DNA of 64,000 bases from positions 7,418,006-7,482,005 of the forward strand of contig OZ024877.1 of assembly GCA_964017185.1 (NCBI GenBank). Reading direction: 5' to 3'. The notes below the pieces were generated by a model. It saw nothing but the letters and a program-made list of their open reading frames with translations, ran no database searches and was not told where the DNA came from. Positions 712 to 53,320 of the stretch are shown in pieces (the first letter of the stretch is position 1; the number at the start of each line of letters is the position of its first letter). Origin of the DNA: Rugalucina vietnamica (Eukaryota; Mollusca; Bivalvia; Lucinida; Lucinidae). The translations under genes were made by a program, and so were the position numbers.

Positions 712-833
712 CTTAGTCTCCTGTAGTTTTTCACTGATAGCTTTACAGCTGTGGTACAGTAGTACTGACACTGGACTGTGGATACCCTCCAACTCCTCAA
801 ACTTTAGAGAGTAGGGCTCAACTACATCTTTTA
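712..833 (-). CDS. Candidate exon 19 of the FAS-like gene
   Basis: An open segment bounded by TTTCAG and GTGACT starts in the phase left by exon 18 and stays open for 40 codons, including DVVEPYSLKFEELEGIHSPV. It does not resemble the FAS dehydratase start, so the support is phase and splice sites only. It could be chance. Confidence 0.4.
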
Positions 834-1654: not shown

Positions 1655-1795
1655 CTCTAGCTGAGAATTCCATCCATCTGGGAACATTCCAGGATACACT
1701 GTGATCCCACTCAACCAGGGGGCTCAGAAAAGGGGCATCTATACCCAGTGGGGTCTCAGGTGGGTTGTAGAGGGCCTGAACACTGATCTGGTGAC
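1655..1795 (-). CDS. FAS-like exon 18 (pre-dehydratase linker)
   Basis: It encodes APFLSPLVEWDHSVSWNVPR, equivalent to TPLISPHIKWDHSQTWDVP of animal FAS, just before the dehydratase domain. Acceptor GTGCAG, donor GTGAGT. The 3' part with donor is duplicated once, 122 bp downstream (1533-1654). Confidence 0.9.
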
Positions 1796-4700
1796 CTGCA
1801 CAAGAAAAACAGAAAAACTTGTTAACACATTTACTAACACATAATTCTGTGCACAAAACCAACACAAATCAGATTGCTCTTAGAGCAGGGGGTGCTTGAT
1901 CAAGAACTTCTTTTTTGCATTTATAATCTTTATCATCAGGACCCAGTTGTTCAAAGCATCGTTAGCTTAACGATATTGTTAAGACATAAATTTGTTAAGC
2001 AAATATCAGCTAAAGTAACAAATACACTGTTATTTTTTGTTGAAAAAATGTGAGAATCCTTTGCAGTGCAAAGGATTCTCACATTTTTTTCAACAAAAAA
2101 TAACAGTGTATTTGTAATATTAATGTTTAAAATTTTAACGAAATGTTAACTATCGACGTCGTTAGTTTTGAACAACTGGGCCCAGGTATCTTCATTCTAT
2201 GGTAAATCTTGTTTTGATTTGTTTGTTATTTTTTTTTAGATAAATGTAAAAAACTTTTAAGTTCGTTCAAAATAGTCCAAAATTATTAAATTCTGATTTT
2301 ACCTGCATTGTGAAGTTCTCCAAGTGTATGACAGAATGACTTTGCTGTGGACTGGCACAGCAGCTCAGGTGGGGGATAATGACACATAGACAGAGAATCA
2401 TTTATAGAAGTCTCAAGGAATGACTGGCTGGACGCACTGGCTAGTCTCCGATGAACACCACTCCTCTCTCTGAAATCCTTCGACTGTGACACATCCAAAT
2501 TCACAGCAGACTGGTCCATGTCATCTGTGGCCTGAATTTCATTGTGTAGCATGGACACAGTTGAAGGGAATAGTTTGAGAACCAGACTATTTTCTGGTAT
2601 GTTACCCAGAGCTGTGAACATGTTGACTGGTTTACAGATGAGTTCTGAGAAGTAGTCTGCATCACACAGAAGCTGTTCATGCTTCCTGATTCTCTGATTC
2701 AAGCCGCAGTGTGAGCTGAACATGTGGGAAGATCTGAAATATTTGACAATGTTTGAACCATATTATTAGATAACCTAATTTTTTGAATATGCAAAAACAA
2801 ACATGCAGATTTTGTAAGATACTCCACAATGCCTCTACTTTCTAAACAATAAATTTCAATTCTCTTTACTGTGTCTGGAAAGCTCAGTCTGCCCCAGGCA
2901 TGCCACAAAAAACATGAATATAGAGAAGAGGTTTCCTTGCATCATTTTTTTTGCAAGTTTTGACTAGTTTTTCAGCAATTGCTAAAGAATCAAGTTAAAG
3001 TTGCTTGTTTGTTCATTACCATTACATCTTTTGAATGAAAACAAATTATCATAAAGATGCAGTCATTTCCAAATAATATGCCACATAATATAAAGAAATC
3101 ACCTGTATTTAGGGGCAGGTATGATATCTCTAAGCTCTGTCTTCAGTTCAGATGCCAAGCCTCTCAGACTACCGCTGTAGAAAGGAATCTTGGTCGGCAG
3201 AAGCTTGAATTCTCCTCCTAGAAATAAGAAATAATCTGTTAGATATTTTTGTCCAAATGATGAGCTTCGTATTAATCAATCATCACTGGGATTTTCCTTT
3301 ACAGGCTTAACCTAAGCAGTTAACCAGCACAATGTGCTCATCTTTTCACAGCTGAAAATACATTAGGATATGCCATACTGCAACCTTCTCATCATATGAC
3401 AAGTTATTGACTTTATTATTTGAGCTTGCTATATTGCTTAACTTTAAGGCTTTACGTCAATGGTCAACAACTCTGGTCATACTGGGAATGTTGGTCGATT
3501 GCAAGCGACTTACAAGACTGCGTTATAGAATACACATTATATGACATACATGTACTCAAAAATACATTCTGATTGATGAAATACACTCCCAGTGAAATGA
3601 TGAATAATGAAATACACTCCCAGTGAAATGATGAATAATGAAATACACTCCCAGTGAAATGATGAATAATGAAACATACTCCCAGTCCCAGTGAAATGAT
3701 AATGAAATACACTCCCAGTGAAATGATGAATAATGACATACACACCCAGTGAAATGATGAATAATGAAATACACTCCCAGTGAAATGATGAATAATGAAA
3801 TACACTCCCAGTGAAATGATGAATGGTGAAATACACTCCCAGTGAAATGATGAATGACAAAATACACTCCCAGTGAAATCAATATTACAAGATCTAGTAC
3901 CTTCATCCAGTATTTTCTTGAGAACTTTTCCTTCATGTTGACCATCTATTGCCATGGTAACATGGTCGTCGTCATGGACAACAAGGACCTGGGCCCAGCA
4001 ACTCAGGTAGTAGGCTTCATCAGAACACATCTCAACCTCGTACATCTTCCATTTACCACCTTTTATCAAAATGAACCACATTATGAGAAAACTAACAATG
4101 TGGTTTCCAAACAGGTCTGACACAAACCTGTCTGTGCAGTCAAAGAAGATGACTAGAAGCTTGAAATTTTGGATTTAGAAAGAGGAGGAATTGTACTATC
4201 CATGTAGCGAAAACAAAGGCGCTGATCAGCTTCGCAGTTACTGCGCCTTTGTTTTTGCATATGCAGATTGTTGGTTTTCTCATGAAGGAGCTAAAAATAT
4301 GAGCCGGATAAATTTAAGACTCAGCTGAGACGAGCATAAAAAAGTTTTATAACCTTGGGGCCTGAGGTCCGACACAATGCTGCCTTTACAGTCATAGAAG
4401 TTTGAATTTCAGATTTTGCTCAAATAATGTTGTAATCTCATCAACTGCATGTTTATGCATGATAAATCCCTTACTATTTTCTTTAGCAAATTTCTCAGCA
4501 TATCTCCCCACACAGTCGGCTATACATAGACACTAGTCGAGGTTTAGAGCACCGTCAACAAAGGCAGCAATGACCTCGGTCAAGCCACACCCTGGTCAAC
4601 AGTCACTGAGGTTTTATGAGGTTAACTTACCATTTTCTTTAGCAAATTTCTCAGTATATACATAGACACTAGTCGAGGTTCAGGACACCGTCAACAAAGG

Positions 4701-7700
4701 CAGCGATGACCTCAGTCAGGCCACACCCTGGTCAACAGTCACTGAGGTTTTATGAGGTTAACTTACCGTTTTCTTTAGCAAATTTCTCAGTATATCTCCC
4801 CACACAGTCGGCTAGATGCAGACGCTGGTCGAGGTTCAGGGCATCGTCAAAAAGGCAGCACTGACCTCGGTGAGGCCACACCCTGGTCTACAGTCACTGA
4901 GGTTTTATGAAGTTAACTTATCATTTTCTTTAGCAAATTTCTCAGTATATCTCCCCACACAGTCTGCTATACGCAGACGCTGGTGGAGGTTCAGTGCACC
5001 TTCAACAAAGGCAGTGATGAGCTCGGTCAGGCCACACCCTGGTCAACAGTCACTGAGGTTTTATGAGATTAACTTACTATTTTCTTTGGCAAATTTCTCA
5101 GCATATCTCCCCACACAGTCTGCTATACGCAGGCACTGGTCGAGGTTCATGGCACCATCAACAAAGGCAGCGATAACCTCGGTCAGGCCACATCCTGGTC
5201 AACAGTCACTGAGGTTTTATGAGGTTAACTTACTATTTTCTTTAGCAAATTTCTCAGCATATCTCCCCACACAGTCTGCTATACACAGACACTGGTCGAG
5301 GTTCATGGCAGCATCAACAAAGGCAGCGATAACCTCGGTCAGGCCACACCCTCGTCAACAGTCTCTGTGGTTTTATGAGGTTAACTTACCATTTTCTTTA
5401 GCAAATTTCTCAGCATATCTCCCCACACAGTCTGCTATACACAGACACTGGTCGAGGTTCATGGCAGCATCAACAAAGGCAGCGATAACCTCGGTCAGGC
5501 CACACCCTCGTCAACAGTCTCTGTGGTTTTATGAGGTTAACTTACCATTTTCTTTAGCAAATTTCTCAGCATATCTTCCCACACAGTCTGCTATACACAG
5601 ACACTGGTCAAGGTTAAGGGCACCGTCAACAAAGGCAGCGATGACCTCGGTGAGGCCACACCCTAGAACATCAGTCATAGTAATGTTGAACTCCTCTAAC
5701 GTCTGGATGAGAGCTGAAAATATATGTTAACCATACTAACATATTTGTTCTAATTAGCGCATATACTCCAATAAGGGCACACCATGGGCATTTCTAAAAA
5801 TCATGTGCATAAGCACACACTGCTCGACTAGCATATTGATATTTCATTCAATTTTCTACACATTGCTGTATTAACCGCATTAAAACTTAACTTCAAATGA
5901 TCAAACATTAATTTGCAATGATTTGAACACTTAAATGACATCATCATTAGTATTTTGACATGGTTACTTCAGCAGTTTATGTGTTGTTTTCAATCCTGGG
6001 CCCTAGGTTATAAAACATTTTTCATGCTCAACTCAGCTGAGCTTGAAATTTAAACTGCTCATAAGTACAGAAATAATCAAAATCAATAGAAAATTCAGGC
6101 TTTCATTAGCAAAACCTGTAATTTATCCTGCTCATAAATGTTAAAATGCCAACAATTGTTGGCATTTTAACATTTATGAGCAGGATAAATTTTAGTCTCA
6201 GCTTAGCTGAGCATGAAAAAAGTTTTATAACCTCAGGGCCTAGTGTGCTCTGATTAGAACGATGTTTGGTTACCTTAACTTTTTGCTATTTTGAAAAGTT
6301 AAGTGCACTGTGCGCTAATTAGAATGGATATGGTAAATGACATTATTCTTAACATGCGAGTATAAAATCGCTGCAAAGAAATTCTGACAAAACTTCTTTT
6401 GCTTTTGTTTGTTTGATTTGTTGCTTACACACAGTCATGTTATGTCTCCACCATACCTCCATTTTATGGAACTTCTTCCCAACATTGGGATGTAATGACA
6501 TCCGAAATGAGCTTCAAAAATGAGCCGCCTCGTGGGAAAACCAATGTGGTTTCCGAACAGGTTCGACTCAAACCGAGCTGTACAAGCAAAGAAGACAGCT
6601 AGAAGCTTGAAATTTTGGATTTAAGAAGAAGAGGAATTGTACGATCCGAGTAGTGAAAACAAAGGTGCTGATCAGCTTTGTGGTTACCTCAAAGCTGATC
6701 TGCGCCTTTGTTTTCGCATATGCAGATTGTTGGTTTTCTCATGAGGCGGCTCAAATATAAACACCCCCCAAGTAAACAACATGGGCCTATAAGGCTGTTT
6801 TGACTGAACATACGACTTTTCATGTGCAGGCTCAGACTTTTAACCAGTTATAAGTAATAAGCTATGGAGGCACATGCATCCACCTATTTCTCACACTACC
6901 AAAAACTTTTTCTGCAGACCAAACAGTGAATCTGACATTTTCTGACATAGGGCAAGCTTTCTTACTGATATTGGGCGATTGTGTTGGTATAAGCAGGATA
7001 TTGCAAACCATATTCCTCAGACCCATATACTGCACTGTCACTGGATTAAGAACCATCTAACCCAGCGAAATAGATAACGATGCGTACTGCATATGTACGC
7101 GCGATTTTTCGCTCTGTACGCATAGAAATTTCGGACCTGTGCGTACCATGTACACAGTAAAAATCAGCGGTACGCAGACAGTTTTCAGTTTTATGCGTAC
7201 TCAGAAAAAAAAACTTATCACAAAATGACAATTCTTCAACTAGTTTTGTCTGGCTGCTCTGTCAACAATGGAAAAGTAGTTACAATATCAATGTAGCTTT
7301 TGCTCGTTCCTTATTAACATATCATGCGATATAGTATGTATCTTCACATGCTCTCTGTTCAGTTCCTCGGCCAGACAAATCTTTTACCAAAGATTTATTC
7401 ATGAAGTTTAGTGTGTCACTTTTATTTATTGAATAGGCATTTTGCATCGATTTCTGGTCATTGTTTTTAATTTAAAACTTGATGTATTCCATGTTCTACA
7501 GCCAGCCCAGTTTGTCATGTTTTCCTAATTTTTTTCTCTCTTATTATCTTTGCAGGGGACAAAAGTATGGTTTAACATGCCTAATTATTAGTATAACATG
7601 TAATTACAGGATTGTTAACCAATTTACATGAATTTTCATTACTTTAATATATTGTCTTACCCATACGTGTACACATATCTACACGTATAAGTTCAATTGA

Positions 7701-10700
7701 TTCTAATGAGAGGTTAGAATAAGAATCATCAGAAAACGTGTACACAGTTGTATTTTCGGTACGCAGTGTGCATTTATTTTTATGCGTACAGTAAGCAATG
7801 TGAAAAATAATTATCTACATCACTGTTACCTATGATGATAGTAAAAGCAGTGAGAATTCCCTCCCTTGTATTAGGTGACAGTTCTCTCCCTTCCTGCAGA
7901 CATTGGTGGATATCTAAGGTTGGATCTAGTCTCTTGATCACCTAGATAAAGATGTACATTCATAATTAACCTTCAAGTCTGGCCTAAAAAAGCAAATCAT
8001 AAAACTGTGCCTGTAAAGTGGGCAATTTCATAAGAAAGCGGCCCCCGTGTCAGAGCTGTTTCTTAATCACTCAATCATCACACCGCTGTGTCTGGTGCGG
8101 GTTCGAGCCCCGCACTCATCACATGTGAGACAAGCCAAGTTCTGCTTGCGGGTGTGTCAGGTGGTTCTTCTCGGGGTTCTCCCATTTTCGCCCACCTACT
8201 GATTGGTCCGTCTCATATGAGCTGAAATAATCTTGAAAGGGACGTAAAACTGAATTAAAACAAAAAATAAAATAAATTTCATAAGAAATCTGCAAAACAA
8301 GCATTCTTTCTGTTAGTATACCAAAATTCCTAAATAAATATCATTGTAGGGAATTTTTGCTCTAGCCCTATATTGTAAAAAATCATTTCATAAGAAACAA
8401 GCATCTCTTAGTTCTTAATTTATCGTAGCTATTTTTTGCTCTAGCCCTTTTTTGTAAATAAAGAAATTAACCTCAGAGGTCCGCTTTTGTGTAATTTGAT
8501 GAATATGTTTTTTTTATGTCACCATGCACAATTTTGAGCCACGACATGAAAAAAAACAACAATGTGGTTTCCGAACAGGTCTGACACAAACATTGCAGAT
8601 TGTTGGTTTTCTCATGAGGCGGCTCTTTTAATGAGAGAGTGACTTTATGCTCCACAATAAGCACCCTCTAAACTTATGGACCGTGAAATTGAATTATAAG
8701 TAAATAACTGACCTTTGTGCACTCCTTCACCATTCGTCTAAACTCATCAATTTCTAGCAGGTCACATGACGCTGAGATTGTCGCCCCGGTAAAATCTTCC
8801 AGACACAGACAGATAGGTTGACTCTTCTCTTCTGGTGTCACAACACTATGCAGGATGAAGTCTGCAAACATTTCACCAATTGTGTTAAAGTTAGATTTTA
8901 TATTACTTAAGAAACATTTTGTCAAGATGCACAAGCTGTTATATCAGAAAGCAAACCATCTGCATATGCGAAAATAAAGCTGTGCAGTAACCTGCACAGC
9001 TGATCAGTGCCTTTGGTTCCCTATATAGATACTACAATCAATCTTCTTCTTCAATCCAAAATTTCAAGCTTCAAGCTTCTAGCTTTCTTCTGTGACTGTA
9101 CAGGTCAGTTTGTGTCTGACCTAGTCAGGACCCCATATTGCTGGTTTCTCATGCAGCTGCTCACATGAATTTGTCATTTTTATGAAACAAGAATTTGCTT
9201 CTTTTAGATAATAGGGCATGAATATCGTAATTCTTATATTTAAACAAGATCTTTCGTTTCTTTGCTACACTAATGCATAGTTTATAACTGAATTGTTTCA
9301 TCACAATGTATCAAGTTTGAAATATATGAACCGCCGCATGAGAAAATCAACCATTTGGGTTTCTGAACATTTTTTTTTTTTTTTTAATTCAGTTTTACGT
9401 CCCTTTCAAGCTTTTTCACTCATATCAAGACGAATCAATTGGTAGGTGGGGCGAAAACCGGAGTACCCGGGGAAAAACCACCTGACACACCCGCAAGCAG
9501 AACATGGCTTGTCTCACATATGAATTTGTGCCCCGTGCGAGGCGCGAACCCACATCGGTGAGATGATCAAATGATCAAGAGCACTGAAGTCAGCGACCTT
9601 AACCACTCAGCCACGGGGGCCGCCAAAGGGTTTCTGAACAGGTCTGACACAAACTCGGTTTTACAGCCACAGAAGCAGGCTAGAAGCTTGAAATTTTGGA
9701 TCTAAGAAGAAGAAGAGGGATTGTGTATCCGTGTAGCAAAAACAAAAGCGCTGATCAGCTTCGCAGTTACTGCAAAGCTGATCTACTCCTTTTTTTTTTG
9801 TTTTCTCATATGCAGATTGTTTGTTTTCTCATGCCGCTGCTCATATTTAATTCATTAACAATTACCTTCCACTTTAGGCCCTAGCTGTATAAATGCTCTG
9901 ATTGGTTGTTTCTGTTCACATGACAACATTGACTCACTGAGCATGCCCAGTAGTCCTGTATTGTATCTGTTGTTGCTGACAAAGTCCCGTATTTTCTCCA
10001 CACAGTTCAAGTTTCGGGCTGTGATTGGTATGACCAGGTGGCCTGGAACTGGGAAATTAGGAATTAATTGAGCCGCGACGCGAGAAAACCGGTCTTTGGG
10101 TTTTCCGTACAGGTCCAACACAAACCGGTCTATACAGTCTCTAAAAAAGGCTAAAAGCTTGAAATTTCGGATTTAAGAAGGAAAGAAATTGTACTATCCT
10201 TGTAGCGAAAACAAAGGCGCTGATCAGCTTCGCAGTTACTGCGAAGCTGATCTGCGCCTTTGTTTTCGCCTAGGCAAAACTCCCGTTTTCTCACGATGCG
10301 GCTCAATTAAGGGCTGGGATGCCTGTCTTTGGGGTTTCAAGCGGGTCATACTGAGTTAGACATTATTTTATCTCACTTATACAGAAAGTTTATACAAATT
10401 AATCTACCCATTCTTAAATGTGCGATGTTGGAATTATGTATGTATGGAATTATGTGAGCATGCAAAATGAAGGAAACCTGAGAGCCTCGGGAAAACAACA
10501 TGACTCGGATGGGCGACTACTATCCTGATATTAACCTGATTTGAACTGGGATTGCAGATATAAAAAACGAATATGCTTAAGTAAACTCAAATCAGTCTAC
10601 TCATTTTCACAGATTATTACTTTGAAGTGTTTAATGCTGTATATTTAAAACTTAGAAAATGTCCAGTAGAAATCATTTCTACTCTGAATCTGCTGTTCCC

Positions 10701-13700
10701 AAAAATAAAAGTGGACTCATTCAAATGATAATGATGGAAGGTCCATTCATCACAAACCTTCATACCTTGAACAAACTCATCCTTGTTTTCATTAATATAC
10801 GGCTCCAGGATCACATGACCATTCACTCCTCCAAACCCAAAAGAGTTCACACCAATATATTTGCCTGAAATATATATGACTATTGCAAGCATAATTTTAT
10901 ACTCATTTTTGGTGTCAATTTGATCTTTCCACAGTATGTTCATGGATGAAGTTGTAAGCATGTTTTTTTATGAGAATCTCACTATTCCCTGGAAAGACTA
11001 ATATTGACAGTTTGTAGCTCTAGAATCAGTGTTAGTTAAAGAATGGAAGTAGAAATACTTTCCTGACAACATCTTACCAGCAGATTCTCCTAGATATTGA
11101 TCTTGCATCCAAAGATCATTTCCAAGTACATCTCAACAATGAAGAGATACTGATTTGTCCATGCTTTTACTGTTTTTTATTTTTGCTGGATCAAAATTTT
11201 AGCAAATTTTATTAAAATGTTACATCAAATCCTACTCACCAGTCAATGGCATTGTTTTATCCACCACTTTCAGTTTTCCCTCAGCAATCCCCTTGATCTC
11301 AGGGTTGGGTGTTTTATAGTTGAAGTCCTACTCACCAGTCAATGGCATTGTTTTATCCACCACTTTCAGTTTTCCCTCAGCAATCCCCTTGATCTCAGGG
11401 TTGGGTGTTTTATAGTTGAAGTCCTACTCACCAGTCAATGGCATTGTTTTATCCACCACTTTCAGTTTTCCCTCAGCAATCCCCTTGATCTCAGGGTTGG
11501 GTGTTTTATAGTTGAAGTCCTACTCACCAGACAATGGCATTGTTTTATCCACCACTTTCAGTTTTCCCTCAGCAATCCCCCTGATCTCAGAGTTGGGTGT
11601 GTTATAGTTCAAGTTAGATGGGATCAAGTCCTACTCACCAGACAATGGCATTGTTTTATCCACCACTTTCAGTTTTCCCTCAGCAATCCCCCTGATCTCA
11701 GAGTTGGGTGTGTTATAGTTCAAGTTAGCTGGGATCAAGTCCTACTCACCAGACAACGACATTGTTTTATCCACCACTTTCAGTTTTCCCTCAGCAATCC
11801 CCCTGATCTCAGAGTTGGGTGTGTTATAGTTCAAGTTAGCTGGGATCAAGTCCTACTCACCAGACAATGACATTGTTTTATCCACAACTTTCAGTTTTCC
11901 CTCAGCAATCCCCCTGATCTCAGAGTTGGGTGTGTTATAGTTCAAGTTAGCTGGGATCAAGTCCTACTCACCAGACAATGACATTGTTTTATCCACAACT
12001 TTCAGTTTTCCCTCAGCAATCCCCCTGATCTCAGAGTTGGGTGTGTTATAGTTCAAGTTAGCTGGGATCAAGTCCTACTCACCAGACAATGACATTGTTT
12101 TATCCACAACTTTCAGTTTTCCCTCAGCAACCCCCCTGATCTCAGAGTTGGGTGTGTTATAGTTCAAGTTAACTGGGATCAAGTCCTACTCACCAGTCAA
12201 TGGCATTGTTTTATCCACAACTTTCAGTTTTCCCTCAGCAATCCCCCTGATCTCAGAGTTGGGTGTTTTATAGTTGAAGTCCTACTCACCAGACAATGAC
12301 ATTGTTTTATCCACAACTTTCAGTTTTCCCTCAGCAATCCCCCTGATCTCAGAGTTGGGTGTGTTATAGTTCAAGTTAGCTGGGATCAAGTCCTACTCAC
12401 CAGACAATGACATTGTTTTATCCACCACTTTCAGTTTTCCCTCAGCAATCCCCCTGATCTCAGAGTTGGGTGTGTTATAGTTCAAGTTAGCTGGGATCAA
12501 GTCCTACTCACCAGACAATGACATTGTTTTATCCACCACTTTCAGTTTTCCCTCGGCAATTCCCATGATCTCAGGGTGTGTGTTATAGTTCAAGTTAGCT
12601 GGGATCAAGTCCTTCTCACCAGACAATGACATTATTTTATCCACCACTTTCAGTTTTCCCTCAGCAATCCCCTTATCTCAGGGTTGGGCATTTTATAGTT
12701 CAAGTTAGCTGGGATCAAGTCCTACTCACCAGACAATGGCATTGTTTTATCCACCACTTTCAGTTTTCCCTCAGCAATCCCCTTATCTCAGGGTTGGGCA
12801 TTTTATAGTTCAAGTTAGCTGGGATCAAGTCCTACTCACCAGACAATGACATTGTTTTATCCACCACTTTCAGTTTTCCCTCAGCAATCCCCTTATCTCA
12901 GGGTTGGGCATTTTATAGTTCAAGTTAGCTGGGATCAAGTCCTTCTCACCAGACAATGACATTGTTTTATCCACCACTTTCAGTTTTCCCTCAGCAATCC
13001 CCTTATCTCAGGGTTGGGCATTTTATAGTTCAAGTTAGCTGGGATCAAGTCCTACTCACCAGACAATGGCATTGTTTTATCCACCACTTTCAGTTTTCCC
13101 TCAGCAATCCCCTTGATCTCAGGGTTAGGTGTGTTATAGTTCAAGTTTGCTGGGATCAACTCACCAGACAATGGCATTGTTTTATCCACCACTTTCAGTT
13201 TTCCCTCAGCAATCCCCTTGATCTCAGGGTTGGGTGTGTTAAAGTTCAAGTTAGCTGCGATCTCCTTATAGTGCATGGCCAGTATACACTTGATGATAGA
13301 GGCAAGTGCTGAAAAGAGAGAGAAAACATGACAGAGGTCAACCATGCAGTCAACCAATAAAGACTGCATCTTGGTTTAGCCTCATCCAAAAGACCCGAGA
13401 CCTGTGACCCCTGATTTACTAGAGGAGTGGCTAAACAGATTTTAAGAGAAAAAGCAATAGAATGTTTCATGAATCATGTATATTTCTGCATCTTAGCCAG
13501 GACCAACATATGTTTTTTGTTGTTGTTTTTGTTTTGTTTGTTTTTTGTTTGTTTGTTGTTGTTTGTTTTTTTCAGGCATACAGGTATACAGGCATAAGCT
13601 TCAAATTTCCCAACAAGGAAGTAGCAGGATTAATATTGCCCCATCTTGTTAGCATTCACAATAACTTTGTTTTTATTTTACTCCTAAGTTGAAACACCTG

Positions 13701-16700
13701 TGACTACAAAACAATACTGATCAGGACCCAGTTGTTCAAAGCATCATTAGCTTAACAATATTGTTAAGACATAAATTTGTTAAGCAAATATCAGCTAAAG
13801 TAACAAATACACTGTTATTTTTTGTTGAAAAAATGTGAGAATCCTTTGCGGTGCAAAGGATTCTCACATTTTTTCAACAAAAAATAACAGTGTATTTGTA
13901 ACATTAATGTTTGAAATTTTAACAAAACGTTAACTAACGACGTCGTTAGTTTTGAACAACTGGGCCCAGGATGTTGTATTTAATTGTCATTCTATCTGCA
14001 TCTTTCTTAACTGTTTGTTTGTCGCTGCTAGACTTCCCTGGCAACTTTGAAGTCTAATCAAGGTTTGGTAGGTTTACAAGTGGCATACTGTTGGGTTCAC
14101 ACTACTAAATATTCATGAGGACTCGCCCCGCCTTTTTCGGGGAGAGCATTCACTTTACATTAGAGACAAAATGACTTCACCTGTCAATAATCGTTAATTG
14201 ATTTTCGCTGTTGAGTGTTTGTTTTAAAAACTTGAAACATGCAACGTTTCCACTCTGATGGTTTAGCGGATAAATCCCGGTATTGGGTGGAAACGGGGCA
14301 ACTTTTTCTCCATGCACCCCTCTGCAGATCCACCCACATTACGAAACATGGCTTCTGATGGCGTTTCTGTTTAACAGATCGTAGCTTTGAATTGAGTAGG
14401 TAAACATGTAGATATTATTCATCTAAACTAATGGGCTATGATAAACATTCAAAATGAGGAATAATGTCTAGTTATTGAGCTAGGTGACAAAACGTTAACA
14501 TTGTCACCTATGGAAAACCCTATAGTGTAATGTAACCTGTTACATACCAGCAGTTGCCTCGGAGTGTCCCATATTACTCTTGACTGATCCTATCATCAGG
14601 GGCTCTTTCCTGTCCTCACAGAATACTGCAGATATACCAGTTGTCTCGGCTTTATCACCAGCCTGCAATAGCAAATGAGCCTGTGCGTGACAAAATCTAC
14701 AATTTGGGTTTCCGACCTGGTCCAACACAGACCAGGCTGTACAGTCATGGAAGGAGGCTAGAAGCTTGAAAGTAAGGATTTAAGAAGAAGAGAAATTGTA
14801 CTAAACGTGTAGCGAAAACAAAGGCGCTGATCAGCTTCGCAGTTACTGCGAAGCTGATCTGCGCCTTTGTTTACGCATATGCAGATTGTTGGTTTTCTCA
14901 TGCACAGGCTCAAATTTCAAGTCAGAAACAAAACTGTTTTAAGTTTTGGTTTGGTTATTACTTGACATCCCAGTCAACAACTTTTCAGCCATGTTGGTAC
15001 AGAGCAGGAACTTAGTGTCTTGCTCACTTGCTAAGGATACTACACGGAAGAGTTGTGTATCAAACCCAAACACAGTCACAGAAGCAGGCTAGAAGCTAGA
15101 AATTTCGGATTTAAAAAGAAGAGGGATTGTACTACCCGGGTAGCGAAAACAAAGGCGCTGATCAGCTTCGCAGTTACTGCGAAGCTGATCTGCTCTTTTT
15201 TGTTTTCGCACAGGCAAAAATCCGGTTTTCTCATTGCGTGGCTCATACAGTGTGACTTAATAATTTTCCATTTTCATAGAGGCTGAAGTGAAACTATCTT
15301 TGATTGCTCTTACGGAAACATGTTTCCATGATGGCAAAATATCCTTTTTAAGCAGCTGTAATAGGAATAGAAATTGAAAACTTAGACTAAAACCTGTGTT
15401 CCTGTTCCGTGAGCTTCGACAAACTTGACGTCATTGAAGTCAATACCAGATCTCTTATACAACATTCTCATCAGGTCAGCCTGCGTCTCAAAGTTAGGGT
15501 TGGTTATACCTACAATTGTACACTGTTATGAGAAAGACTCTCTTTTGTGGTTTCCTCATGGTTCAACACAAATCAGTCATAAGTGATGGCTAGAAGCTTA
15601 ACTTTACAGATTTAGACAGAAAAGAAATTGAATTATGCTTCAAAATAAAAGTGATCATTATGGAAACTTCTCCATGATTACTTGGAAATTTCTTTTAATT
15701 ACATATTAAATATCTATTTATAAACAAAAATTTAATTTTAAAATTTCCGACACAAACCAGTCTGTGAAATCACTGAGGATGCCTAGAAGCTTGATATTCC
15801 TGATTAAAGAAGAAGAGGAATTGTACTATCTGTATAGCGAAAACAAAGGCACTAATCAGCTGTGCAGTTAAAGCACAGCTGATCTCTCCCTTTGTTTTTC
15901 GCATAGTCAACAAGTAGCCCAAGGGCAACGATCGCTCACCTGAGAGTCAACAAGTACAGTCACTAGACAAAGTGTTGTTTTGTTTTTTTTTGTGTGTTTT
16001 TTTTTTTTAAGATCTCATCAAAATTGAAGATGCTGGAGTGGCCACAACACTAAAAATTGATTTTTCAAACATTCAAGGGCAGCTAACTCCGCAGTCCAGG
16101 GATGAATCTGGCTCAAATTCAAATTCATCCAAGATGTTATAGTAATCCTTGTTTCTTTAAAGAATGAAGACGATCTGATCAAAACTGAAGGCGTTAGAGT
16201 GGCCACAATACAAAATATTGATTTTTTAAACACTAAAGGGCAGCTAACTCTGCAGTCAGAGGTCGGATCTGGCCGAAATTCGAAGTCATTTGAGATATTG
16301 TAGTTATTCTTGTTACCTGCAAGAATGAAGAAGATCCACTGTAAAACAAAGACGCTGGAGTGGCCACAACACAAAATATTGGTTTTTCAAACACTCAAGG
16401 GCAGATAATTCCGCAGTCAGAGGTCGGATCTGGTCGAAATTCAAACTCATCCGAGATATTATGGATGTCTCTGTTACTTCCAAGAATAAAGAAGATCAGA
16501 ACAAAAATGAAGGCACTAGAGTGGCCACAACACTAAATATTGACTTTTCACACAGTCAAGGGCAGATAACTCTGCAGTCAAGGGTCGGATCTAGCTGAAA
16601 TTCGAACTCATCCGAGATGTTATGCCTATCCTTGTTACTTACAAGTATGAAGAAGATCCGATCAAAATTGAAGGCGCTAGAGTGGCCACAACACAAAAAA

Positions 16701-19700
16701 TTGATTTTTCAAACACTCAAGGGCAGCTAACTCCGCAGTCAGAGGTCGGAACTGGCTGAAATTCGAACCCATCTGAGATATTATAGTTGTCCTTGTTACC
16801 TGCAAGAATGAAGAAGATCCAATGAAAAAAAAGGGCTCTAGAGTGGCCACAACATTTTTCCATTTTAAGTCTATGGGGATTTTTCCAGACGCTCAAAGGC
16901 AGCTAACTCCGCAATCTGATGTCAAACCTGGCCAAAATTCGAACTCATTCGAGATATTATGGTTGTCCTTGTTATTCCCAAGAATGAAGAAGATCCAATA
17001 AAAAATGAAGTTGCTAGAGTGGCCACAACATTTTCCCCATTATAACTCAATGGGAGCTATCTGTTGCCATGGAAACCAGAGTTCTGATCTGACCTGGCCC
17101 AAAACCTAAAGCAACCTTTCCCCCTCCTCAAGGATGCTTCAGATAAAATTTGATTGCGATTGGCCTTGTTGTCTTAGAGATATTCAAGATTGAAAGTGTG
17201 AACGCACGGACGAACGGATGCACGGACGCCGGCTCGACTACCATACTATAAGCTCACCTTGTGAGCCTTCGGCTCAGATGAGCTAAAAACCTGAATTTCT
17301 CATGATCCTGTGCAACTTTGTAAGTCTTTGCATCATGCACAAGTCACACAGCTACCAAAACGTCATCACACTTCAAAGAATATCACCAGAAAAATAAACA
17401 TTTTTACCTGATTCTTTATAACCATCACAATTAATACCAATGTCTATGATGTTGGCGTATACTCTCTGACATATATCTGCTGTGCTGAAATATGGCATAA
17501 ACATGTTGAAAGCTGGGCAAAATATAATGTTTTTGTTTTTGTTTGTTTGTGTGTTTGTTTTTTCATATAAAAGCCTTGATATGGGCTTATTGAAGCAGAA
17601 TGCTGAATATGGCTATCATTTTTTAAAACACTTTTAGGAAAAAATTGAAACGTCACAATTTGCATCCTGGCAGCCCTTTTTTCCGATGAAGGTAAAGGTC
17701 ACCCATTTCATCACCAAGGGGACCCAACAGTTAATCGTGATTATTGATGCGACGTGGAATGTTAATGCATGCTATTATGAAGTTTCGTATGCGTCAACAA
17801 GATCGTTACGAATGCGACATTCCACATCCTCTGCCCTTGAACAGTAAGTACCACGTTTTGCTCTCGTGAAAATAAACAAAGCCGAGTTTACAAAATCGGC
17901 GTCCAATATGATCTGCAAAATTCTTCTATGTTCCCACTTGAAGTCAATTGGAACACTTACATCACTTGTGTTTTTCAGCTAATGGTTTATAAAGTTGACC
18001 TAGAGATACAAAGATGCCACGGAAACTCATAACATTCTTAAAGTCCTTTTGTTTTTCTTTGTCTTGATCGTAAACTAAGAAGTATAACACAGTCCTGACA
18101 GACCTTACAAAAACAGCTTTGTAAATGCACATTTATCTACTGAGCATGAAAAACAGTAAGATAAGCACTTTTGTATGCATCAAAGATGAAGGTACATAGT
18201 ATTAGGATGTGTCATGGAAGAATTAGCATTTTGTTGTGCTCTTTCAAAAGTCATTTACGTCAATACAGAAGCATAACGAGTGTCTTCATCTAGCCCAATA
18301 TTGCTTGACGTATTTTTCCTTGGACTACATGTACTTCGTTGAGCGAGCTTCAAAGCATATGCTACTTTTATTTTGAATGAGGTCACAGAGTTGGGTTTCT
18401 GATTCAGCTTTGTCAAAATTCGAGTGACACAACTACAAAACCAGCAATGAAGGTTTACAGGAAGCGATGGCTTTGACACAAGCTACAGCTCCTACCATAT
18501 CGTTACAATTGCTATTTTATTTTACTGATTCATAGGTCTCATTCTTCCACCATGCATTTCTGTGTCACATATCAAATTTTAGCAACGTCTTCGACGCATA
18601 CAAAAGGTGCTTACCTCACTGTTTTTCACGCTCAGTAGATAAATGTGCATTTACAAAGCCCTTTGGATACATATTTCAATAAAGACAACCACAGGACTGT
18701 GTTATACTTCTTGGTTTACAGCCAAGACAAAGAAAAACAATATTCTAATCCTAATTTGTATTGCATGTAAATGTATGATTTATATATGTATGTGATTTAT
18801 TTGAATAAATATGTTTTAAACTAAAAACAAAAAGACTTTAAGAATGTAAAGAGTTTTCTTGGCATCTTTGTATCTACATGTCAACTTTATAAACCATTAG
18901 CTGAAAAACACAAGTGCCGTAAGTATTCCAATTGACTTCAAGTGGGAATATAGAAGAATTTTGCAGATCAAAGTGGATGCCGATTTTGTAAACTCAGCTT
19001 TGTTTATTTTCACGAGAGCAAAACATGTGACACTTACCGTCCAAGGGCGGAGGATGTGGAATGTCGCAATCGTAACGATCTCGCCGACGCATAAGAAACT
19101 TCATAATAGCATGCATTAACATTCCACGTCCCACCAATAATCACGATTAATAGTTGGGTCCCCGTGATCACCTTATCACTTAGGGTTCACACCTTACCTG
19201 TTTGCAGGTTGTGTTAGGTGTTGTTTTTTTTTCTCAGGGCACTCCAGTGTTTGCCCCATCTATAGAATGGTTGTCTCAATATGAGTGAGATTACCTTGAA
19301 AAGCACATAAAATTGAATTAAAACAAAAATGCATCCTTATCACACTGAACCAATTAAGGCCCATACCATTTGCATATGCCAACGGTAGAAAGTACAACGT
19401 TATAAGCAAAGAAATAAAGATGCCTACCTAGCTATAAGAAGGGCTGCACATCCTTCTGCTCTTACATAACCATTGGCCCCCTGGTCAAACACCCGACTCT
19501 GGCCCTCCTTGGATAACATATTCAACACAAACATCTGCTGGGAGAATAGAGGGTTGATCACTAAGTTACAGCCTGAAAAATAAGCAGATATGAAATATCT
19601 AGTGGTTTTGTTTTTTTTAAAATAACACCTTTTCCAAACTCTGATATTTCAAGGGATGTTACTCAGCTCAAGATATACCATCCAATCTTAAATTGAACTG

Positions 19701-22700
19701 CACCATGAGAAAACCAACAATGTGGTTTCCGAACAGGATCGACACAAACCAAAATGGCTAGGGACAGAAAATGGCTAGGGCTGGAACTTTTGGATTTAGA
19801 AAGTAGAGGAATTGTACTATCCGTGTAGCAAAAACAAAGGGGCTGATCAGCTTCGCAGTTAGTGCGTCAAGCTGATCTGCACCTTTGATTTTGCATATGT
19901 GAAGTGTTGGTTTTGTCATTATGTGGCTCAATTTGTTAAATTTATCCAGCTGACTTTTCCATTTGAGTTTGTAAGGGTATTGGTCAGAAAATTCATACTG
20001 AACACATAAAATTGTGAAACAGCCAACAACAAAATAACTCCTGTAATTTCAAAATACTATTAGTCTCTTACTCTCTAGAAAGCAAGTATCATAAAGCATT
20101 CTCTTCAGGGTCCACAAAAAGTATTTGAAAATTCAGTTAATTCAGTTACCAAATGCAGAGGTGTAGTGTTTTTTTTTGTTTTTTTTTTTTTGTTTTTCTT
20201 TTAGGGGTGGGGGAAGGAGTGGTTCTTCTACTTTTTGGAATTCTTAATTGATAACACCTACCAGCAACAATAGCATATTTACAGGCCCCACTCTGTATGT
20301 CCTGGACGGCCATGTTGAGGGCAGCCATACTAGAACTACAAGCCGTATCCGTGGTGATACAGGGGCCACTCAGGTGCAGGGAGCTCATCAACTCACCGGC
20401 TATGTAGGGGGACAAACTCACTGAAAACAGAACATACATAATTGGCCATGATACTCTAATGGATGGCATAGTCGCTTAGCTATCCGGAGGTTGCGGGCTC
20501 GATACCCTGCCAGTACATCCCTGTCTTGTTGATGACAAATTTTCATCATAATAATGGCAGACCCCCCATAGGGTGTAACATTTTAGTGTGGGATTAACAA
20601 AGTGTATTGAAATTTTAGTCTGAGCAGGAACTTTACTGTCTATCATTCTGCTGACAATCTTTCACAGTGTACAGATATATAAGCCACATCATGAGAGAAC
20701 CAACAATGTGGTTTCCGAATAGGTTTGACACAAACCGAGCTGTACAAGCACAGAACATGGCTAGGGATGGGAAATTTTAGATTTATAAATTGTTCTATCT
20801 GTATAGGGGAAACAAAGGCGCTGATCAGCTTCGCAGTTACTGCGAAGCTGATCTGCATATTTGTTTTTGCATAAGCAAAATGTTGGTTTTCTCATGATGT
20901 GGCTCATATCTCATTGAGTATTGCAGTTTGGAGCATATTAATCATTTTTGAATCTTTACAAATGATAAGTCCCAGCAAAAATGTTTGACAAAACTCGATC
21001 CAACAACATCTGGAAAGTAGCAATTTTAGTAAATACCAGGAAGATTTCTGTAAAGTTTTTTTTTTATATGTTTATCCCTTTCTGCTATTGCAAAACTACT
21101 TTTTCACTGAATCAGGAATTATAAACTCTTGTCACCTTTTTGAAATGGCTCAATTTTTGTGCAACATGGAAGGAAAACTTCAGAGACAGAGTATAACATG
21201 AAAAGAAGCTAACTAATCCTACCATGATCAGTCTGTGGACAGGTTGACGTCTCAATGAAATCTGTGTCAGATCCAAATATAGCCACATACAGCCCTGTTT
21301 TGGTGTGCTGGAGTTCCTCTAAACTGAGAGCGCTATCTACCACACACTCGTACGTCACCTCAAGTAGATGTCTTAACAATGGGTTCAGCTCATTAGCCTA
21401 CAAGAGAATATATTCACAGTATGTCTGACTGCAATGTTCAGCCATATAAGGAAACTACTAAAACCATATGAGCCTATGCATGAGAAAACCAACAATTTGG
21501 TATTCTGACCAGGTCTGACACAAACCGGGCTGTACAGTCACAGAAGCAGGCTAGAAGCTTGAAACTTCGGATTTAAGAAGAAGAGGGATAGTACTATCCG
21601 TGTTGCGAAAACAAAAACGCTGATCAGCTGTGCAGTTACTGCACAGCTGATCTGCGTCTTTGTTTTCGCATATGCAGATTGTTGGTTTTCCCATGTGTCA
21701 GCTCATTTAAAATTGACCAATGTGAAATGCTTTATTTGCTTGACTGCTTCAAAACAAATAAGACAAACTACCAATGGAGCTATCTGCCATGGTAAATCAG
21801 AAATTTCAATCTTTTATACAGCCTCCCCTCTGTGCAAATGCAAAAAACAAAGCTTACAAACTGAAAATACCTGGCCCCGAGGTCATAAAACTTTTTTCAT
21901 GCTCAGTTCAGCTGAGACTCATCCTGGCAAAAATGTTTTAAAAAATGCCAACAATTGTTAGCAGGATAAATTACAGGATTTGATGATCTAAACCTAAAAA
22001 AAAAAAAAAAAAAAAAGAAAGAAAGAAAAAAAACCCCTGAAATTTCAATTTAATTGGATTTATGAGCAGTTCAAATCTTATGCTCAGCTGAAAAAAGTTT
22101 TATAACCCTGGGGCCTGGTAATAGCAGCTGTATTCAAGTTAAAGCTGTATGGGAGACTTGAGAGTTTGAGCTAAGTACATGGAAACTTCTTAAAATATGA
22201 GCCGCCTCGTGGGAAAACCAACAATGTGGTTTTTGAACAGGTCCGACACAAACCAAGCTGCACAAGAACAGAAAAGTGCTAGATTCTTGAAATTTTGGAT
22301 ATAAGTAGAAGAGGGATTGCACTATCTGTTTAGCAAAAACAAAGGTGCTGATCAGCTTCACGGCTACCGCTAAGCTGATCTGCGCCTTTGTTTTCGCATA
22401 TGCAAATTGTTGGTTTTCTCATAAGGCAGCTCATATGGAGCTAATTATTATTACAACAACATACCTCTTCATCCGAGATGTTGAAGAAGACAGAGTCAAA
22501 CTTGTCTAGGTCGTTGATGGCCCCTATCCTGGGTGGGAGATCATACAGGCCCTGGGGCCACCGGGTGGGACCAATCATATCATTGCCTTCTATAAGATTC
22601 TCCCAGAATTCCTGTAACATGTGACAGATATTATTTGATGTTTGTCACGAGAAAACCAGATATTTTGCATATGTGAAATCAAAGCCGCAGATCAGCTGTG

Positions 22701-50795: not shown

Positions 50796-50974
50796 TACGC
50801 GGAGCATAGCGGCTAGGGTGGAGATGTCAGATGCTAGACATTTTAAAACAACAGTCACGCCCTATTGAAGCCCGACAAAAAGCATACCTTTTCATATAAT
50901 CGATATAAAACATGTACGCAATTATTATAGTTTTTACCTCGTTTACAAGTCAATGACGCAGTGGTAAAGTCACA

Positions 50975-50990
50975 AAGTTCTTTCTTTCAG
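50975..50990 (+). promoter_or_regulatory. Probable 3' splice site before the TRIM start
   Basis: GTTCTTTCTTTCAG is a good pyrimidine tract with CAG. It supports a spliced leader exon upstream, probably beyond the Penelope copy. Confidence 0.55.
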
Positions 50991-50998
50991 GAATCAGA

Positions 50999-53320
50999 AT
51001 GTCTGATACTCTGGAGGACCTACGCGAGAGAGTGAGATGTCCAATATGTAAACAGATCTTTAACAATCCTAAAAGACTTTCCAACTGCAGTCATGTGTTT
51101 TGCCTTCTCTGCATCAAGACGTACATGGAGAGATGTCAGGTCTCCAATTTTCCACCGTGTCCAATGTGCAGGACCCCTATCTTGACATCGCTTGTCAATA
51201 TCGACGGATTAGAACCAGCAAGAGCTGAAATAGACATTATCCCAGTTGTAAGAATGTATGAAACATGTGACATTTGCAAACAGAAAGAACATCCGAAGCA
51301 AAGGTGTTTACAATGCGATTCGTTGATATGCGAAAATTGTAAACCGAGTCATGCTAAGTTCAACACGTTTCACGTACTAGGTGATGTTTTGGGACCGGGA
51401 TCAAGTAGAAATTCTGCATCAAAAGACAATTGCAAACAACACCCAGAAGAATTAGCTATCTATTTTTGCATTATGTGCCAAAGTGTTCTATGTAAGCTTT
51501 GCCAGCACGCTACCTGTAAAGAGGTGTTTCCTGAACAATCGGTGGCGTCTCGATATGAAGTTGGGTTTCTGAAAGAGTTCAAAAATTCAGAATGTAGCAG
51601 AAGCTTGTCAAGGATTGTGCTTATCAAAGATATTGCATCCGAATTTAAGAAATGGCTAGGTCGTATAGAGTTTGAATTAAATGAATGCATTAAGTTTTTT
51701 GCTGATTATAAAAATGGACTCGTAGAATTAACGACAAAAACGAACGCTCCGACAGTAATTGACAGAATTCAGGTGCTATTGGATACGGTTGATGCTGTAC
51801 TATACTCCGCAAAAAATACACACAAGTTAATTGTTGATTTTACGAAGATTTCGTCTGATGCTATGGTAGCCCAATCTTTCTCCAAAATTGAGAACGACTG
51901 CTTAGACATAATACTGCAACGCAAGAGATATTCGATGGAAACTCGACCTTTGGACATTTCATTAAACAATCAGGTGTCAAAATGCGACATACGGCTAGTG
52001 CACGGTAAGATCAACGCTTTGGTAAACCCATACATAACTACTGGCGAAAGCGAACTTGGTAAAACGGACAAACTTATGTCTTTTTGGATTCCAGAGGAGC
52101 TGCCGTCCAACTTTCCAGAGGGAATTTTTTTACAGACACTATGCTTTTCTTGTCAATCTCATGATGTGGCATATACATACTCTCACATTACATACTTGGA
52201 ATTGAAACAGTGGGATCTTTACAAAAGTATGTTCATTGAAGGGTCAAATGGACAACACATCCAAAGCTTAAAAATCAAAACCATTGCTTCCGGCTGTACT
52301 CCCAGTTTCCAATACAATCATTACATCGACCATGTAGAAGACACCTTTCACAATAGAGGCGTGTTTTACACAAAATTTACATTTGCTGATATATTTGGAC
52401 TGTTGTCAAGAGATAAATACGCAATGCGCTTCAAAAATATGCTTGACTTGATATGTGTTTATGATACAAACGGAGTACGTAAGGAACTAAATCATTTTCC
52501 TGACACTGGGTTGTTTTCTCTGATAGGGAGCAGAGAGAAGAAGCTGGGACTTGACACAGTTTTTGTCTACTTTGATAAACGTAATGGCGGAGTAGAAGGT
52601 ACGAACAATGTCTGCATAAATGCAAGAAAAGCTCATTTCAAAGGTGTGCAATACCCATACCATACTAAATATGATGTAGAGAAAATTGTAGATGATAGCC
52701 TTAAAGAAGAGTTTAAAATGCTGATTGCGAGGCCAACCGGTGCAGATAATGATGATTTTACTATTGGCAATTACAACTGTAATGGCAAATATACATGCTG
52801 TCCAGGAGAAACATTCTTTACAGATGACTTTCTCCATTGTCTCGATAGTCAAGGAAGTAAAAAATACAATATCCCTGTCAAACATTTTCAAGTAGAGCTA
52901 CTTTGTACCTTGAAATCTGGTATTTACTACGTACAAAAAATGGGAGATGAAAACTTGATTGTATTTGGAAGATTGGTTGTAACTGAAAAACAGGTAGAAG
53001 GCAAAGTGCTTTTTAATATCACACAAGATGTGTCACCCATTGAGCCAAGCAAACTGAACCCGTTGACTATGGTGGACGGTAGAGATGGTGATGTGGTTGT
53101 AGTGTGCTCTGTTACTAGAACCACTGAAACATTTGTTATGATCAGATTAAGCAAGGAAGGTGATGGGGCAATAGAACAACTGGATCTACATGGATTGGAA
53201 TCAAATCTACGTGAGGCTTCAGTTATAGACCTAGAAATGGACTCAGATGGAAACATCATGTATGCCATTCAAGATAAAGACGGTATACAATACTGTGGGT
53301 TTACTAAATATATATTGTGA
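50999..53320 (+). CDS. TRIM-type RING/B-box protein, 773 aa, single coding exon
   Basis: The N-terminus has a C3HC4 RING (Cys14, Cys17, Cys30, His32, Cys35, Cys38, Cys54, Cys57), the E2-binding module of ubiquitin ligases. A B-box 1-like block (about residues 90-125, CDICKQKEHPKQRCLQCDSL) and a B-box 2-like block (about 145-173, CKQHPEELAIYFCIMCQSVL) follow. Residues about 195-330 are helical and could be the coiled coil. The last 400 residues match no C-terminal TRIM domain I can name; NHL, SPRY or filamin repeats are not evident, though the final part has beta-rich repeats. The CDS has no intron. A 3' splice site (TTTCTTTCAG) lies 8 bases before the ATG, so a 5' UTR exon is likely. Such TRIM genes are greatly expanded in bivalves, often in innate immunity; the substrate here is unknown. 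Confidence 0.92.
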   Translation: MSDTLEDLRERVRCPICKQIFNNPKRLSNCSHVFCLLCIKTYMERCQVSNFPPCPMCRTPILTSLVNIDGLEPARAEIDIIPVVRMYETCDICKQKEHPKQRCLQCDSLICENCKPSHAKFNTFHVLGDVLGPGSSRNSASKDNCKQHPEELAIYFCIMCQSVLCKLCQHATCKEVFPEQSVASRYEVGFLKEFKNSECSRSLSRIVLIKDIASEFKKWLGRIEFELNECIKFFADYKNGLVELTTKTNAPTVIDRIQVLLDTVDAVLYSAKNTHKLIVDFTKISSDAMVAQSFSKIENDCLDIILQRKRYSMETRPLDISLNNQVSKCDIRLVHGKINALVNPYITTGESELGKTDKLMSFWIPEELPSNFPEGIFLQTLCFSCQSHDVAYTYSHITYLELKQWDLYKSMFIEGSNGQHIQSLKIKTIASGCTPSFQYNHYIDHVEDTFHNRGVFYTKFTFADIFGLLSRDKYAMRFKNMLDLICVYDTNGVRKELNHFPDTGLFSLIGSREKKLGLDTVFVYFDKRNGGVEGTNNVCINARKAHFKGVQYPYHTKYDVEKIVDDSLKEEFKMLIARPTGADNDDFTIGNYNCNGKYTCCPGETFFTDDFLHCLDSQGSKKYNIPVKHFQVELLCTLKSGIYYVQKMGDENLIVFGRLVVTEKQVEGKVLFNITQDVSPIEPSKLNPLTMVDGRDGDVVVVCSVTRTTETFVMIRLSKEGDGAIEQLDLHGLESNLREASVIDLEMDSDGNIMYAIQDKDGIQYCGFTKYIL

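Follow-up and report, generated by a model that had tools for sequence, protein, structure and literature searches.

Mo-clade 4 of the molluscan AFPKs is a group in which InterPro finds only a ketosynthase (KS), an acyltransferase (AT) and a thioesterase (TE), as stated in excerpts of Lin et al. 2024 (PMC10764717). In the same excerpts, the clade is recorded from all surveyed mollusc classes, its biochemistry is given as unknown, and mo-clades 1-3 are described as lacking a TE; excerpts of a second paper (PMC12833800) describe molluscan AFPKs as not clustered with modifying enzymes. The matches listed in the open-licence PMC literature held no further paper on mo-clade 4. Here, we describe a paralogue of animal fatty acid synthase (FAS) from the lucinid bivalve Rugalucina vietnamica, whose gene begins within a window of 64,000 nucleotides on contig OZ024877.1 (C9:7418006-7482005) of a 1.09 Gb genome in 47 contigs. 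The encoded protein keeps the catalytic motifs of KS and TE and has lost those of AT, and its architecture makes membership in mo-clade 4 most likely.

The gene lies on the minus strand and was spliced exon by exon using GT-AG sites, phase and similarity, with 80 kb to the left of the window added. The resulting model has 34 exons and 1,996 codons, its sole stop being the terminal one; it starts at the ATG at window position 23607 and ends at offset -27449 (C9:7390556), approximately 27 kb left of the window. The required AG and GT dinucleotides were present at 34 of 34 exons, and phases were compatible throughout one ATG-to-stop frame. The gene is intact, and signs of a pseudogene are absent; the unbroken frame of 1,996 codons bears out an earlier sequence-only reading, according to which the coding signal is kept and does not reflect simple decay. 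That reading had assigned both KS and AT to 2303..8861. These positions match the outer edges of exons 12-17, which hold the AT part only, while the KS lies outside them, at 23607-10766. Residue numbers past the KS Cys are 7 below those of the sequence-only reading, most likely because exons 5 and 6 were joined differently, with no effect on which motifs were identified. The exons and the associated intronic copies are as follows, with the evidence for each.

23530..23607, minus strand: exon 1, KS N-terminus with start codon 23607-23605 (short FAS N-terminal consensus, BLAST E 0.56, top of list; splice phase; GT donor; phmmer extends over the exon)
22465..22611, minus strand: exon 2, KS (AG/GT, frame, phmmer, Pfam PF00109)
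21223..21397, minus strand: exon 3, KS (splicing, Pfam, phmmer)
20262..20420, minus strand: exon 4, KS nucleophile Cys161 in TACSS, 20340-20338 (splicing, phmmer)
19428..19572, minus strand: exon 5, KS (splicing, phmmer)
17408..17463, minus strand: exon 6, KS; the exon 5/6 junction is the least certain, the protein having 6 residues fewer than human FAS at this point (splicing, phmmer)
15394..15509, minus strand: exon 7, KS His287 in HGTGT, 15411-15409 (splicing, phmmer)
14548..14662, minus strand: exon 8, KS Lys320 and His325 in KSNMGH (splicing, phmmer)
13165..13308, minus strand: exon 9, KS C-terminal half, with 18 tandem partial copies in the intron after it, 13147-11240 (splicing)
10766..10864, minus strand: exon 10, KS end, GFGG (splicing, phmmer)
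9866..10042, minus strand: exon 11, KS-AT linker (Pfam KAsynt_C_assoc)
8713..8861, minus strand: exon 12, AT start, with DFTGAT at the GMGTQW position (phmmer, splicing)
7830..7941, minus strand: exon 13, AT (phmmer, splicing)
5546..5713, minus strand: exon 14, AT elbow GCGLTEV with Gly577, and Val602 at the Arg position (phmmer, splicing)
4476..5507, minus strand: 7 tandem partial copies in the intron, derived from the 3' part of exon 14, each with G-C-G and none with GHSxG (sequence comparison)
3901..4059, minus strand: exon 15, AT (phmmer, splicing)
3103..3217, minus strand: exon 16, AT Tyr680 in PFYS at the His position (phmmer, splicing)
2303..2733, minus strand: exon 17, AT end and linker (phmmer, splicing)
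1655..1795, minus strand: exon 18, start of the dehydratase (DH)-like part, SPLVEWDHSVSWNVP, with one partial copy at 1631-1533 (phmmer, splicing)
712..833, minus strand: exon 19, DH-like, the expected place of the catalytic His motif, which was not seen by eye (splicing)
Offsets -1649 to -27449 (C9:7416356 down to C9:7390556), minus strand: exons 20-34, left of the window (splicing)

Alignment by phmmer to the KS-AT part of human FAS was collinear over residues 10-763, with 392 bits for that stretch. The KS keeps Cys161, His287, Lys320 and His325, which we take to be catalytic, and the triad Cys161/His287/His325 is complete in the spliced protein. In the AT, GCGLTEV was aligned under GHSLGEV, placing Gly577 (bases 5657-5655) at the position of the nucleophile Ser. 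Val602, 25 residues past Gly577, occupies the Arg position, Tyr680 occupies the His position (PFYS under AFHS), and DFTGAT stands in place of GMGTQW. The sequence-only observation of an intact KS beside a dead AT, with Ser, Arg and His replaced by Gly, Val and Tyr and the GMGTQW motif lost, was thereby confirmed. With all three residues replaced, the AT is unable to use the Ser-His-Arg mechanism, as had been proposed.

The KS and AT also differed in how much of the FAS pattern they retain. Invariant columns were defined as those identical in human FAS and two FAS genes of the same genome; 90 of 124 such columns were kept in a 250-residue stretch of the KS, compared with 26 of 101 in the AT. 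The AT was 21-22% identical to each of these three FAS, which share 55-66% with one another, and a genome-wide exon-wise search with PF00698 did not list the window gene. The length of the KS-AT part was preserved, at 754 residues compared with 762 in human FAS. From these comparisons, the AT has lost its chemistry and seems to retain a fold of unchanged size.

Coding character was retained across the region. The linker and AT together comprise 437 codons with no stops, compared with 5.48% stop codons in the gene's own introns (10^-10.7), a value that overstates the surprise because openness of the frame had guided the choice of exons; more weight attaches to the collinear alignment. The G+C content at codon positions 1, 2 and 3 was 52, 37 and 47% in the AT and 51, 38 and 51% in the KS, and a positional bias was found in all parts of the gene.

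Two ways in which the AT might have kept a nucleophile were considered and rejected. A search for G[HYFQWC]SxG in six frames from offset -28000 to 24000 returned 9 matches, of which 7 are on the minus and 2 on the plus strand. GHSxG is not among them, and a single match, the GYSFG of the TE, falls inside an exon of the gene. An alternative elbow exon was rejected, as no GHSxG occurs across the span of the gene and the intronic copies of the elbow read G-C-G. Cys576 was rejected as a substitute nucleophile, as it aligns with the His of GHS and so precedes the nucleophile position by one residue, and as the Arg and His are also lost.

The intronic copies were not confined to the elbow. The introns behind exons 14, 9 and 18 hold 7, 18 and 1 partial copies, respectively, arranged in tandem and covering the 3' part of the exon together with its splice donor. 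The copies start right after an AG in 7 of 7 cases for exon 14 and in 13 of 18 for exon 9, and their phase, judged by eye, would permit in-frame splicing. Relative to the array consensus, exon 14 showed 0, 0 and 4 changes at codon positions 1, 2 and 3, while its 7 copies together showed 18, 6 and 21. This comparison hints at selection on the present elbow segment; the numbers are small, the copies are non-independent, the measure is not a dN/dS, and exon 9 of the KS likewise gives 1, 1 and 0.

At the other end of the protein, the TE exon ranked first among the 6 matches to PF00975 in the genome. It aligned with the TE of human FAS (1.1e-35) over the Ser, Asp and His motifs, which supply Ser1761, Asp1788 and His1971, again presumably catalytic. 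Consistent with these alignments, Pfam detected ketoacyl-synt (6.2e-52), Ketoacyl-synt_C (2.4e-36) and Thioesterase (2.9e-22) in the protein. Acyl_transf_1, KR, PS-DH and PP-binding were absent among the 9 Pfam families listed up to E 10, a listing limited by the HMMER filters, which discard most matches above E 0.1.

Between the AT and TE, the part expected to hold the DH, enoylreductase (ER), ketoreductase (KR) and acyl carrier protein (ACP) was reduced. The second DH motif reads LSFIND, compared with ISFMDT in the FAS chain 6fn6, which places Asn1041 at the Asp that is presumably a catalytic DH residue; the DH His motif was not seen in exon 19 when compared by eye with the known motif. The ER region aligned with ERs of polyketide synthases (PKSs) and FAS (EcPKS1, 6.9e-7), with GSGGVG replaced by PPIDTTG. 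The phmmer blocks stop at residue 892 (human 882) and restart at residue 1172 (human 1668). As this leaves 280 residues from DH to ER compared with 786 in human FAS, the pseudo-methyltransferase/pseudo-ketoreductase (psi-MT/psi-KR) stretch, approximately 500 residues between DH and ER, is missing from the predicted protein. Exon 23 appears by eye to span the end of the DH into the start of the ER.

Neither a KR nor an ACP was detected. PF08659 matched neither the protein nor the gene locus, and exon 26, the end of the ER, lies just 698 bp from exon 27. PF00550 (PP-binding) likewise matched neither, so that no ACP with a (D)SL serine was found, and exons 27 and 28 had no match among PDB chains up to E 10 in the ACP search. 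In three of the four FAS-like genes of the genome, the ACP exon starts in phase 1 and ends in HPIEG or HDIFG before the GT. Exon 29 is the positional twin of this exon, with a phase 1 start and HPITG before the GT, and is without an ACP motif. It codes mostly for a 217-residue linker before the TE, in which K, P, S, T and E make up 50.2% of residues, compared with 31.0% in the rest of the protein.

These losses set the gene apart from the other AT genes of the genome. In whole-genome profile searches, which scored best candidates only, PF00698 identified 11 further AT genes with a readable elbow, comprising 7 of PKS type (open frames of 1,804-2,355 codons) and 4 FAS-like genes with introns. 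The AT Ser and Arg were kept in 11 of 11; the AT His was read in the 4 FAS-like genes, all of which keep AFHS. Matches to PP-binding and KR were found at or near all 11, assigned for the intron-rich genes by position and strand, up to approximately 45 kb from the AT at C3:80.35M. TE matches were found at all 4 FAS-like genes, two of them below the curated cut-off. A further AT fragment at C9:15.59M, of which the elbow was read (GFSLGE, with the Ser kept), stands outside this count of 11. The 7 PKS-type genes have the elbow GQSVGEV and lie at C14:18.06M, 18.24M, 22.48M and 11.02M, C4:58.33M, C7:20.06M and C2:1.18M, four of them on one contig.

Kinship with FAS, also proposed in the sequence-only reading, was upheld. 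The best PDB relative of the whole protein was human FAS (1.9e-163), followed by EcPKS1 (2.5e-106), in a phmmer search of PDB chains. The KS was 47-49% identical to those of human FAS and two FAS of the same genome, which share 53-67%. In a KS tree of 11 rows, based on the 113-126 residues after GTGT and including all 7 PKSs, the window gene grouped with three FAS against the seven PKSs of the genome with support of 100/99, and a smaller tree with 2 of the 7 PKSs agreed. The position of the gene among the FAS was weakly supported (48/59, and 48/41 in the tree with 7 PKSs). A genome search with its KS found no second copy of the gene, and the next KS matches were approximately 50% identical, on which ground a close paralogue carrying the lost parts was rejected. 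The gene is the only close FAS paralogue found in the genome.

Collectively, these data favor a FAS paralogue, likely of mo-clade 4, that has probably been reduced to two apparently working enzymes, KS and TE, acting on thioesters supplied by other molecules. Such a protein would have to operate differently from an ordinary synthase. The AT retains length and weak similarity without chemistry, the DH and ER persist as remnants without motifs, and the psi-MT/psi-KR stretch, KR and carrier protein would have been lost from the protein. Because there is no malonate loading and no recognizable carrier of its own, the protein would act on acyl thioesters delivered by others, such as CoA or the ACP of a true FAS. 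The KS, if active, would take the acyl group on Cys161 and the TE would release it, with the dead AT and the remnants serving as a structural frame between them. A non-elongating role, as suggested by the sequence-only reading, is plausible for such a protein. In a more specific version, which we put forward only tentatively, the gene would encode a carrier-less animal "synthase", a FAS-derived KS-TE that works in trans on acyl chains bound to CoA or FAS, condensing or releasing them, and that would have been kept in molluscs as a lipid-metabolic step in its own right.

Several observations weigh against a carrier-less KS-TE protein of this kind. Intact KS and TE motifs are no proof of activity, and the mo-clade 4 assignment is drawn from architecture alone. 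Exons 27 and 28 and the start of exon 29 have no homologues and are the least certain parts of the model; GLSTSLMETDAVAIETL in exon 27 is arguably ACP-like with its Ser, and an ACP diverged past recognition is possible. The argument from exon 29 holds for three of the four FAS-like genes, since the ACP exon of the fourth (C3:80.35M) has a different end. Weak Pfam matches below the cut-off were also found to ADH_zinc_N, a remnant of the ER, and to an mRNA methyltransferase model (0.0098, residues 1029-1097), the latter taken as chance.

Among the alternatives, the protein may be a partner subunit of a true FAS, forming a mixed dimer through the KS interface, using the AT and ACP of the FAS and altering the released chain length with its own TE. 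FAS dimers with one crippled subunit can function. The 47-49% identity of its KS to that of human FAS and to two FAS-type KSs encoded in the genome, the preserved KS-AT length, and the coexistence in the genome of four FAS-like genes that have AT Ser/Arg/His as well as ACP and TE matches all speak for such a partnership, which we nonetheless consider unlikely.

Less probable still is a pseudoenzyme, either a scaffold or an acyl sensor in which the KS binds acyl chains without catalysis. The loss of most former catalytic sites and the reduction of the DH, ER and AT to mere remnants would fit this proposal. However, all seven KS and TE catalytic residues examined are kept, and the KS keeps far more of the FAS-invariant columns than the AT, which would be unneeded in a pure scaffold. 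Since both sets of catalytic residues are so well kept, a pure scaffold is less likely.

The sequence-only reading had also suggested loading in trans. An AT-less synthase served by a separate malonyl transferase would agree with an intact KS beside a dead AT; the fragment at C9:15.59M may be a free-standing transferase. Loading in the sense of a trans-AT system requires an ACP of the protein's own. The window gene lacks the PP-binding and KR matches that accompany all 11 other AT genes, at the locus or close by. Because no ACP of its own was found, loading in trans in the usual sense is very improbable, and this suggestion was not sustained. Finally, a decaying pseudogene, to which the many lost domains and the repeats and retroelement in the introns might point, is scarcely credible for 1,996 codons without a stop or frame break, with correct splice sites at 34 of 34 exons, a codon-position bias throughout the gene and, on small numbers, changes in exon 14 at third positions only.

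Several other elements were observed in and near the window. The 13 kb intron between exons 25 and 26 contains long open reading frames (ORFs) resembling reverse transcriptase and recombinase, DIRS-like by eye, at C9 approximately 7403580-7409210 (offsets -14426 to -8793). Within the window, a match to Rfam SECIS_1 at 28787-28720 on the minus strand scored 39 bits against a gathering cut-off of 35. It immediately follows reverse-transcriptase-like ORFs at 30956-28762 that are Penelope-type by eye, and a second copy of the end of this ORF lies at 46682-45930. The term "Penelope-like" was absent from the papers listed in a literature search. On the plus strand, 50957-53320 is a single open frame of 787 codons with a RING and B-box-like start, TRIM-like by eye.

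Compared with known systems, the FAS-derived KS-TE protein resembles animal type I FAS (human FASN and the genes at C3:48.1M and C14:26.2M) in its collinear order, its KS and TE motifs, its KS identity and the motif at the start of the DH, and its ACP-TE exon boundaries are common to three of the four FAS-like genes. Unlike these synthases, it has an AT that does not work, a DH and ER without motifs, no psi-MT/psi-KR stretch, no KR or ACP that could be found, and a 217-residue linker before the TE. Bacterial trans-AT polyketide synthases carry ACPs that are loaded in trans. Like these synthases, the window gene has a KS and no working AT, but no ACP of its own was detected.

EcPKS1 and EcPKS2 (AFPK mo-clade 1; PDB 9cq1, 9ctk) are also FAS-derived and have a similar KS-AT length. 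The condensing part of EcPKS2 was solved with malonyl-CoA, according to the PDB title, and therefore its AT presumably works, in contrast to that of the window gene. A second difference is the TE, which the window gene has and which mo-clades 1-3 lack in the excerpts of PMC10764717.

The likeness to mo-clade 4, as this clade appears in those excerpts, lies in a FAS-like KS, in the presence of a TE, unlike mo-clades 1-3, and perhaps in how little is recognizable beyond KS, AT and TE. For the window gene, Pfam sees the KS and TE, whereas the AT is recognized by alignment alone; the excerpts of PMC10764717 hold no statement on the AT residues or ACP of mo-clade 4. If the gene is a true member of this clade, its anatomy would explain the poor domain prediction, as the chemistry of the middle part, from KS to TE, is gone, and would sharpen the question to what a lone KS and TE do without a loading enzyme and a carrier. 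The gene would also illustrate clearly how a megasynthase can be cut to its two ends, with the frame between them partly kept. If the carrier-less version were true, mo-clade 4 would be a branch of animal FAS that works without AT and ACP.

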